The translations under genes were made by a program, and so were the position numbers. A stretch of DNA of 27,287 nucleotides from Antrodiella citrinella (Eukaryota; Basidiomycota; Agaricomycetes; Polyporales; Steccherinaceae), in contig SGPM01000356.1 of NCBI GenBank assembly GCA_004802725.1, positions 1 through 27,287 on the forward strand, read 5' to 3'. Below, in pieces: positions 3,492 to 6,361 of this stretch (positions are counted from its first letter, which is position 1; every line of letters starts with the position of its first letter). Under the pieces are notes generated by a model. That model was not told where the DNA came from. It made no database searches and saw nothing but the letters and a program-made list of their open reading frames with translations.

Positions 3492-4056
3492 ACTTGAAGC
3501 GGGAGGTAGGATAGAAGTGAATTTGATTTGTATCTAATAATCTATAGCATGAGTGACACCCCGTGTGTAGAAGTGGTACTTAGGATGTACGATTGGAGCA
3601 TGGAATGTATGTCGCTGCGATTGTGAAGGCTCCTCCAAGCCTCTACACTTCATGACCCATTGATCATTGGAGTGGTTTCAACATGGCTTCTGTGAAGTAA
3701 TTGGTGATGAGTTTGTCCGTATACTTATACCATCAGCAGTAAACCATTGCACGTCTTCTTGGTACTCAACACATCTGTCTGTAATGAATTGCAAAACAAG
3801 AAGCGATACTGTAGATTAGGATTTCCAAAACATGCCATGCATACATATCTGTAACAAGCCAGGGAGAGCGAAAGATACAATAGGCCAAATACATATGATA
3901 GATATGCCTCTGATGAGGCGAGCAAGATAGAAAGCGGCAGTGTGTATCAAAACCTACAAACGCGAAGACAACAACATTCTTTGATCAGAACATACGCAGA
4001 TGAGTGGATGGTAGAGGAACTCACGAATACGACGACAACATAGTCTGTGGACGGAA
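3492..4056. other. Intergenic: relic 3' flank and Galpha 3' flank
   Basis: No gene is seen. The first about 60 nt resemble the 3' flank of the intact dehydrogenase (a GATTTGTATCTAATAAT-like block). The rest lies downstream of the distal Galpha terminal exon on the minus strand and probably includes its 3' UTR. I found no third copy of the Galpha terminal exon here. Confidence 0.6.
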
Positions 4057-4109
4057 TTACAAGATCAGATCAGCCTTCTGCAGATGCATGCGCAAGATAC
4101 CGTCCTCAA
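4057..4109 (-). other. Distal alternative last exon of the Galpha gene
   Basis: On the minus strand a good acceptor (CTAAT branch-like site, long T-rich tract, CCTCTAG) precedes a phase-1 exon that reads VEDGILRMHLQKADLIL and ends in TAA at 4057-4059. It joins in phase to the donor at 4436/4435 (GCCG|GTAAG). That is the same donor used by the proximal last exon at 4286-4335, which reads VEDGILEMHLRSIDLM. Both exons encode the Galpha alpha-5 helix end and stop. Using this exon would give a 483-aa protein through a 326-nt intron. An old silent duplicate would be expected to have lost frame, acceptor or stop, and this one has kept all three. Confidence 0.75.
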
Positions 4110-4285
4110 CTAGAGGACAAAAACGTGAAAAGAAGGAAATATTAGCACAATGATATACAATAACACGAATCAGAATGAAAAGAGAGCTGACGGTGAATGT
4201 GCCGTGCGAGCGTTACGAGGTGCTGAGAGAGGAGAGGAACGTAAATTGAAGGTAATGTTGCAGGTGTCATGAAGTCGTGACAGGC

Positions 4286-6361
4286 CTACATGAGATCGAT
4301 GCTACGCAAGTGCATTTCCAAGATACCGTCTTCGACTGCAGGGCATGAATGAGATGCAAAAAGATGGTGAGAGCAAAGAGTGGATATGTAAATAGAAGCA
4401 AGCCTGATACAAACGAGACAGAAATGCAATCTTACCGGCGTGAAGGGTTACAGCTGTGGCTCTCGTGTCCTACGAGTGCGAATGTTAGAAACGTTGAGAG
4501 AAGTAAGTGGCGTCGGCGTACTATGACAGAGGTAAGGTGGACGCGGAACGGTCGCGGTTGGGGTGAACATTGTTTCGAAATCTCCTTGAAGTGTTGTGCA
4601 AAGTCTGCGAAGTCCAGCTAATATGAGCGTATGTTCAGTTGGAGACAAACAAGCTTACTACTCACATTGTGACACAGTCTGAGCATCATTTTTACGTTTT
4701 CCAAAGCTAGGAACATAGTCTTTCACTTGGATCCCTAGGCGGAGCTTCTTCTCTAACAGATCACATCTTGCAAACCAAGAGTCAGCTTTGACTGCATGAA
4801 AAGAACTGATGATGACGCACTTGTTCAAGAACAAAATGATTTGAGATTTGGCAAGCAACTTCGACGAGCAGATCTCTCGCCACAAGGCATAGCTATCCTC
4901 AAGACGATTCATCCGCCTGTCTTCAACCAGCTTCTCGTCGAAGCAGCTGATAGGTGCCAGGAAGATGATAGCATCACAATCATCGAAGTAAGGGGTCCAT
5001 GCCGCCCGCTGTCGACAAACGTACGTTAATATCTGCGAACTTCCAAGTTACAATCTGAGTTTCACTGGCGTACCTGAGTGCGAGAACCACCGACGTCATA
5101 TAGAACCCTTGAGAAGTCACGGAGATGAGCCTATCACTTGTATCAGGATCACAAAATGTTGACGTACCAGTCCATACCGGCGGCAGGTCCTAATGGATTT
5201 TAGATTCAGCACGATGACCACAACCGCAGTGTGTAACATCATACCTGTATCGAAGTGAATGTGGTATTCTTGTACACCCAGTGTACGTAGCCGCGCTCGC
5301 ACGACATCTTCGTTCGTAGGTACATAGTCGCGTTTCGTGATCCGCATCACGTCCGCGATAAAACTGCAAGACGATCAGTCTGAGACGTAACAAGATACGG
5401 CAGACAATCGTGCTCACAAGCCAGGTAGCGTGTCCATTCTCACTTTCCGACGTCTCAGCATCTCCTGGACTGCCTCGTCATCCCATAGACTTTTGATAGT
5501 TTGCGCTAGCCCAGCCAATATCTCGTTCGTTTGGAGGACTTCCGCCTCACGATTTCGCTTTGGAAGTCCAACCGCAGCTTCCGAGTTCCTCCTCCCGGGC
5601 AGCAAGGACGCTTTCCAGATACTACTTCGCACGAACGTTTCCTGCCCATGTTTCTTGGCCAGCTTCTCCTCTTGACCCGTGGGTTCGCTAGATGAAGCAC
5701 CTAGACGACCTTCAAGATCTTTCTGGACTTGTCGGAGGGGAAGAAGTTGGAGTTTGAGCAGGCGGTGTTTCTCATTGAAGATGAGGGGCGTTCGTCTTCG
5801 AGTAGGACTCGCTGGTGGACCGGAAGTCGCCTCGCCGTCATTCTCGCTGCTGCTATCCTCCTCATCTGAAGATGCCCTCTCGTTCTCCAATGCATCCGTC
5901 AACAGGTCAATAATGGTATGGACGTTGCGAAGGAGATTCCACTGGATGACTGTCCGCCACGAAAGGAGCTCTGCTTCCCAGGCAGCTTGAGAGTACGCGA
6001 GCTGAAAGTCTGGACCGTGATCCCGTCAACGAAGTTTCATCGTACCAATAATGAACTCACTTTTCAGCGTCGTTGACTTGCCTGTCCAGAACCACGTTAA
6101 TAATAGAACATTCCAAAGGAACATGAAGGAACAGAGAAATTAAAGAGCGTGCTTACCACTCTCGCTTTGACCCAACAAGAGAACCTTCACGTTTGGTTTC
6201 TTCTTCTGCGTGTTCTTCGCCGCCTTGATCTCCTCGTCGATATCGTCGCTGATCTTCCGCGCCTTTGCCTCCTCCTTCAGCCGCTCCTCCCGCTGCTCTG
6301 GCGTCTCATCTGGCGGTGGCGATATGGCGAGGGTGAGGGGGTCGTCGTCCACACGGCCCAT
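4286..6361 (-). CDS. Heterotrimeric G protein alpha subunit, insertion-bearing type
   Basis: This is a membrane-associated GTPase that relays signals from seven-helix receptors. Eleven exons sum to 1449 nt (482 aa): 6157-6361, 6061-6081, 5418-6009, 5245-5363, 5168-5189, 5074-5107, 4821-5008, 4666-4766, 4522-4604, 4436-4469, 4286-4335. Visible motifs are the P-loop GQSESGKST (64-72, split by intron 1), the switch I Arg297 and Thr300 in RLRTLGV, DVGGSR (324-329), NKCD (393-396) and TRAT (457-460). Ordinary Galphas are about 350 aa; the extra length is mainly an acidic/Ser-rich then basic stretch in the helical domain (roughly residues 110-220). The start at 6361 gives Met-Gly, which fits N-myristoylation, though position 6 is Asp rather than Ser/Thr and no Cys sits at position 3. 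Reading further upstream finds only a GTG. The catalytic switch II Gln is Ser328. The last exon has a second version at 4057-4109. Confidence 0.93.

Follow-up and report, generated by a model that had tools for sequence, protein, structure and literature searches.

Tandem last exons in a Gα gene of Antrodiella citrinella, an apparent old duplication that may provide two receptor-facing tails

The window analysed here, the whole stretch of 27,287 nucleotides of contig SGPM01000356.1, contains a complete Gα gene on its minus strand, EUX98_g7798 of Antrodiella citrinella (Steccherinaceae, Polyporales). When the exons of its body were joined and translated, all introns were of the GT-AG type and the frame stayed open throughout the ten exons (Table 1). 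The body runs unbroken into either of two complete last exons that follow one donor in phase. With the proximal exon, it gave a protein of 482 amino acids that is letter-for-letter equal to the annotated protein P0001; with the distal exon, it gave a form of 483 amino acids that carries no annotation. Two in-phase last exons at one Gα donor had been the central claim of a first-pass annotation of this DNA, and its coordinates, phase, acceptors, reading frames and peptides were all reproduced by our splicing and translation. The two exons are homologous, adjacent, of the same phase and of nearly equal length, as is characteristic of tandem duplicated mutually exclusive exons. Each has its own stop, so that the two can never be translated together in one frame.

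Table 1. Features of the Gα gene in the window (positions count from the first letter of the window; a slash marks the splice point)
Feature	Position	Strand	Remarks
Gα gene, common part	4436-6361	minus	ten exons; 466 whole codons and one further base, which opens the codon finished by either last exon
Gα exons 1-5	6361-6157, 6081-6061, 6009-5418, 5363-5245, 5189-5168	minus	
Gα exons 6-10	5107-5074, 5008-4821, 4766-4666, 4604-4522, 4469-4436	minus	
Penultimate exon	4436-4469	minus	bears the donor GCCG/GTAAG (4436/4435) common to both last exons
Intron to proximal exon	4336-4435	minus	100 nt; branch-site candidates CTCAC and CTCAT; acceptor TGCAG
Proximal last exon	4286-4335	minus	VEDGILEMHLRSIDLM-stop; annotated; derived tail kind
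Intron to distal exon	4110-4435	minus	326 nt; acceptor CTCTAG with 14 pyrimidines among the preceding 17 bases; CTAAT as branch-site candidate, 32 nt away
Distal last exon	4057-4109	minus	VEDGILRMHLQKADLIL-stop; unannotated; ancestral tail kind, R7 and A13
Possible 3' UTR intron	3954-4024	minus	GTGAGT ... CTGAT ... TTTGTAG; follows the distal stop closely; weak, partly read by eye

The body is that of a Gα protein. Pfam family PF00503 (G-alpha) matched it with 313.5 bits over profile positions 2-332 of 333, and its best sequence matches in the PDB were Gq, G13 and Gi. A predicted model, examined by structure comparison, adopted the Gα fold with the terminal α5 helix present; among the 50 structure matches listed, a G protein was named in 48 titles and the other two were receptor complexes. 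Helix α5 occupies residues 457-478 of the model and the last exon begins at V467. The view that both exons encode the end of α5 was upheld by the model and by the PDB sequence matches. The catalytic Gln of the DVGGQ motif is a Ser in P0001 (residue 328, window 5083-5085). Among the best 120 of 2017 related records this Gln was found in none (Thr in 70, Ser in 40, Ala in 9, His in 1), and the switch-I Arg was present in all 120. Atypical Gα proteins without the catalytic Gln exist, and since this Gln is a catalytic residue and not a feature of the fold, its absence does not bar membership of the family. Judged from their sequences, the Gα proteins of this Gln-less group may hydrolyse GTP slowly or by another way. 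As to N-terminal lipidation signals, 77 of the 120 aligned records (again the best 120 of 2017) have a Gly as their second residue, and 5 have a Cys among residues 1-12. An acidic, Ser-rich insertion was seen in the region of the helical domain (window 5414-5902). This insertion, about residues 106-229 of P0001, has no counterpart in the best PDB sequence match; model confidence was below 50 at residues 183-186 and 188-199.

The proximal and distal tails differ at residues 7, 11, 12, 13 and 16, and the distal one has a 17th residue in addition. Residues 7 and 13 are Arg and Ala in the distal exon, Glu and Ile in the proximal one. From residue 7 to the end the net charge is −1 for the proximal and +1 for the distal tail, in agreement with the charge difference pointed out by the first-pass annotation.

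The likeness of the two exons is far beyond what chance produces in this DNA. To build a tail profile, we took 54 distinct tails from relatives other than Antrodiella; we then scored every AG in the window, on both strands, behind which 16 codons in the phase of the donor are free of stops (2050 positions). The distal exon scored best of these 2050 acceptor positions with 40.1 bits, the proximal exon came next with 28.2 and the third-best position reached only −2.2. With a profile made solely from the 34 distinct tails outside our Polyporales list, the scores were 38.4 and 26.2 for distal and proximal and −0.1 for the next. At the DNA level, the best ungapped match of the proximal exon within 4285-3700 comprised 31 of 47 bases, against a maximum of 27 in 2000 dinucleotide shuffles. 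Chance resemblance is ruled out by the profile ranking together with the shuffle test. No further match to the motif, and hence no third tail exon, was found at 4435-3000. An artefact of assembly or a second allele is likewise ruled out, the copies lying on one contig, differing at 16 of 48 bases, and the 413-base stretch that holds them matching the genome once.

The Gα profile found 44 matches on 16 contigs of the 30 Mb assembly, this contig counted, and one may ask whether one of the tails was captured from a paralogue. We do not favour this origin, because the best DNA match of each copy was the other copy (32 of 48 bases); the eight paralogue exons available for comparison shared 18-28 of 48 bases with either tail exon. 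Two paralogues, L007 and L016, also share 32 bases with each other, so that this number by itself is weak proof against capture. Those eight exons come from 8 of the 14 other loci scanned (L004, L007, L012, L014, L015, L016, L019 and L020), each with a single last exon of the same phase. Tandem tail exons were found at none of these eight, where a diverged copy could hide at L004, L015 and L020, whose tails are far from the profile. At the six remaining scanned loci (L001, L002, L003, L005, L006 and L021) no last exon of the same phase was found; C577 and C581 lay outside the scan. As far as the test is applicable to these loci, the putative duplication of the tail exon is particular to EUX98_g7798.

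The pattern of changes between the two copies points to constraint at the protein level. They have 11 of 16 residues in common, and identity at codon positions 1, 2 and 3 is 13, 12 and 7 of 16. The method of Nei and Gojobori counted 7 changes per 9.67 synonymous sites and 9 per 38.33 nonsynonymous sites (dS 2.53, dN 0.28), an estimate from 16 codons with a nearly saturated dS, from which no date is derivable. Fisher tests gave p = 0.0097 for synonymous against nonsynonymous changes (rounded counts) and p = 0.025 for third positions against the other two. Selection on each exon had been suggested before, and these counts fit purifying selection. In a neutral simulation at the third-position distance of 1.04, at least 11 of 16 residues were kept without a stop in 0 of 20,000 runs; at shorter distances the same outcome occurred in 0.7% (distance 0.5) and 23% (distance 0.25). 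If the divergence is split over both copies, the simulation becomes less extreme, as the value at distance 0.5 indicates. The flanks downstream of the two stops were identical at 10 of 30 and 14 of 60 bases. Upstream of the exons, 15 of 30 and 27 of 60 bases were identical, above a quarter, but both stretches are pyrimidine-rich; a common origin of the two upstream introns is conceivable. Taken at the level of sequence, the exon pair fits an old tandem duplication of which both copies have been constrained as protein.

The relatives allowed us to ask which tail is the older in kind. They were the best 120 of 2017 proteins, clustered at 90%, so that isoforms of the same species sit behind one record. 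A complete tail was available in 112 of them (P0002, P0007, P0032, P0033, P0065, P0089, P0111 and P0112 being left out), 33 of which belong to a Polyporales list compiled manually on the basis of record names and the tree, with P0006, P0009 and P0011 carrying no species name. Outside this list Arg was found at residue 7 in 79 of 79 tails, Ala at residue 13 in 78 and both in 78. A Val, Ile or Leu at residue 13 occurred in 12 of the 33 tails on the list, the annotated one of Antrodiella counted, and in 0 of the 79 others. The protein records on the list thus divide into 12 proximal-type tails, 20 with R7 and A13, and one unlike either. The combination of R7 and A13, nearly universal outside the Polyporales list and absent from the proximal exon, marks the distal exon as the ancestral kind and the proximal one as a derivative. 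It is therefore the unannotated distal exon, and not the annotated proximal one, that looks ancestral in kind.

Elsewhere on the Polyporales list, the proximal exon was best matched by tails like VEEGILQAHLRSVDLI (11 of 16 residues; records of Wolfiporia, Fibroporia and Taiwanofungus), the distal exon by tails like VEEGILRDHLQRADLL (12 of 16; Trametes-type records). Eight of the 112 complete tails have a 17th residue as the distal tail does, among them that of P0035, which ends HLRRADLIL. Protein searches with each tail region alone returned the same three proteins for both. At a body identity of 0.60-0.75, proximal-type pairs shared on average 10.1 tail residues (n = 50), other Polyporales without Lenzites 11.3 (n = 55) and non-Polyporales 14.1 (n = 1318), from which we conclude that tails change faster in Polyporales.

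Antrodiella citrinella is the one species in which we observed the distal exon directly, and the protein records of its two closest relatives show a proximal-type tail only. In Steccherinum ochraceum (P0003) the tail ends VEDGILQSHMKRLDLM. The second relative, P0002, filed as Cristinia sonorae, reads through the donor into a C-terminal peptide unlike that of any Gα protein. One frame over, however, its codons can spell VEDGILQTHLRSLDLI-stop straight after a CAG, 107 nt past the donor. Among 114,638 placements over the 120 proteins, a shifted frame allowed a loose tail motif to be spelled 4 times, and only the one in P0002 lay near a C-terminus. Over its whole length this hidden exon matches the proximal tail at 12 of 16 residues and the distal tail at 11, a nearly equal likeness, and its assignment to the proximal type hinges on residues 7 and 11-13. 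A proximal-type exon is then assigned to two close relatives, to P0003 by annotation and to P0002 by inference from its codons. In the body tree, computed by a quick method from 57 of the 120 bodies, P0002 grouped with Antrodiella and Steccherinum with an SH-aLRT of 100; Cristinia sonorae stands in the Agaricales in the taxonomy, and the label or the placement is doubtful. The same holds for P0032, filed as Pleurotus ostreatoroseus, which groups among records of Phanerochaete and Phlebiopsis.

A hint that the arrangement may reach further comes from two other records, P0036 of Lenzites betulinus and P0027 of Trametes gibbosa. Their bodies are 92% identical and sisters in the quick-method tree (SH-aLRT 100), but their tails, VWDKIFAKNLKDADLA and VEEGVLRDHLQRADLL, have only 5 of 16 residues in common. 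Of 172 pairs with bodies at least 80% identical, the 8 that include P0036 share 5-6 tail residues and the other 164 share 13-16. This mismatch would be explicable by a gene finder that chose another last exon, and equally by a mis-predicted exon. Tails of Laetiporus and Amylocystis end ADLA, those of their tree neighbours SVDLI or SVELI. We also observed that Ganoderma sinense P0112 ends VDGGIFHYS and its near twin G. boninense VEEGILRDHLTRADLL, perhaps by use of another last exon and perhaps by an error of prediction.

Intron length and splice signals pull in different directions. The nine other introns of the gene measure 51-75 nt, and the intron to the distal exon, at 326 nt against 100 nt for the proximal one, is of a length that speaks against efficient distal splicing. 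Distal splicing is favoured by the CTAAT candidate and by the pyrimidine tract, with 14 pyrimidines in the 17 bases before the acceptor, the most of the eleven acceptors of the gene, compared with 12 for the proximal exon. The intron-like stretch at 3954-4024 could bear on mRNA decay of the proximal form.

We propose, with a probability of roughly 0.7, that these are tandem-duplicated last exons spliced in a mutually exclusive manner and giving rise to two isoforms with different receptor-facing ends. The final 16-17 codons, comprising the second half of α5 and the C-terminal tail, lie on a separate phase-1 exon that would have been duplicated in tandem long ago, presumably before Antrodiella split from the other Polyporales with the same derived tail. 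The shared donor would join the nearer copy, or skip it and join the farther. The farther copy would retain the ancestral tail of the family and the nearer one would have diverged. Such isoforms would share their nucleotide-binding and effector surfaces and differ in the end that is shown to receptors, and a single gene could serve two sets of receptors or couple with two strengths. We are rather confident that both last exons are used. A difference between the isoforms in receptor coupling has, in our estimation, slightly less than an even chance. More tentative again is the idea of an exchangeable cassette of last exons that extends over much of the Polyporales, with the ancestral R7/A13 tail, a derived tail ending in -[VIL]-x-L-[IM] and perhaps a third, ADLA tail, by which one G protein might be re-aimed through splicing; it is hinted at by the Lenzites and Trametes gibbosa records, so alike in their bodies and so unlike in their tails.

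Use of the proximal exon only, the distal one being a displaced ancestral copy in the 3' UTR that has not decayed so far, would account for the annotated protein, which contains the proximal exon, for the proximal-type tails in the records of close relatives and for the unusually long intron that the distal exon requires. We nevertheless consider it unlikely, since a copy drifting free of constraint retained 11 of 16 residues in none of the 20,000 simulated cases at the observed divergence and rarely at half of it, and since the distal exon has the better fit to the family profile as well as a strong acceptor. If disuse of the distal exon were only recent in this lineage, the neutral simulation would be no counterargument. 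The converse, a dominant distal and a minor proximal exon of which the annotation program simply picked the nearer, appears the least probable of the alternatives. The distal tail is indeed typical of the family, with the higher profile score and the better pyrimidine tract, but 11 further records on the Polyporales list (best 120 of 2017) show the proximal-type tail. They include P0006, whose contig of 1768 bases has no room for a gene with such introns as EUX98_g7798 has and is therefore probably a transcript.

It may also be that both exons are spliced but that the switch tunes abundance, stability or localisation of the mRNA through different 3' UTRs, possibly with decay of one form by way of a 3' UTR intron, and not the choice of receptor. 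The UTR-intron-like stretch that follows the distal stop (4024-3954), with the proximal stop about 260 nt upstream of it, would suit such a role. The pattern of changes, however, indicates constraint on the protein sequence, and the differing residues fall within the C-terminal ten or eleven, the region where Gα proteins contact their receptors. We regard this purely regulatory role as improbable, a little more so than use of the proximal exon only.

Parallels to the proposed exon switch are known from animals. In mammalian GNAO1, one gene provides GoA and GoB through alternative C-terminal exons, with different receptor partners reported; this is an animal Gi/o gene, and its differing exons span more of the C-terminal part than those of Antrodiella. 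In KRAS, the 4A/4B tail is directed to membranes, not to receptors. KRAS resembles the Antrodiella gene in encoding a GTPase with alternative terminal exons and two C-termini, although it is a small GTPase; its forms 4A and 4B are described as arising from alternative fourth exons (PMC9882654). GαoA is named as the commonest splice variant in a passage of PMC3285607. A close parallel is amphioxus preGNAS, whose last two exons, encoding α5, are duplicated and for which the authors proposed an effect on receptor diversity, so that tail exons of this kind are known in animal Gα genes (PMC5896119). As in Antrodiella, the C-terminal Gα exons of preGNAS are mutually exclusive, and the second set is longer by one residue, like the distal exon; in contrast to the fungal gene, preGNAS is an animal Gs gene with two exons per set, in which α4 and β6 differ as well (PMC5896119). 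Likeness between the preGNAS copies is 80-81% at the protein level and 88-89% at the DNA level (PMC5896119); the Antrodiella pair is less alike, with 11 of 16 residues and 32 of 48 bases. In passages on insect Gαq (Anopheles, Lygus, Drosophila), homologous exons of one gene are alternatively chosen as well, one form being head-specific and linked to phototransduction; there, several exon pairs of an animal Gq gene are swapped (PMC4553527).

For fungi, intron retention is described as the commonest event of alternative splicing (PMC5034255). In Schizophyllum commune, an Agaricomycete as well, mutually exclusive exon events were reported in 171 genes, mostly in untranslated regions; the passages on mutually exclusive exons do not mention homologous tandem exons, and 'G protein' or 'G-protein' does not occur in the main text (PMC5034255). 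No switch of a fungal Gα tail was found among the titles and passages that searches of open PMC papers listed, for some searches a part of the hits; this is weak evidence of its absence from print and consistent with the first-pass annotation, which knew of no described fungal case.

In conclusion, the sequence of EUX98_g7798 shows a fungal Gα gene whose paired alternative last exons are real, seem to be old and are probably both used; precedents for such a pair exist in animals. A receptor switch is plausible as the best single guess for the purpose of this pair. To our knowledge, the pairings of receptors and Gα proteins in mushrooms are largely unknown, and two swappable receptor-facing tails would make the choice of receptor addressable with only the last 16-17 residues varying. 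If our proposal is true, the gene would represent a clear instance of fungal alternative splicing yielding two conserved proteins, and an independent parallel to the tail exons of animal Gα genes.
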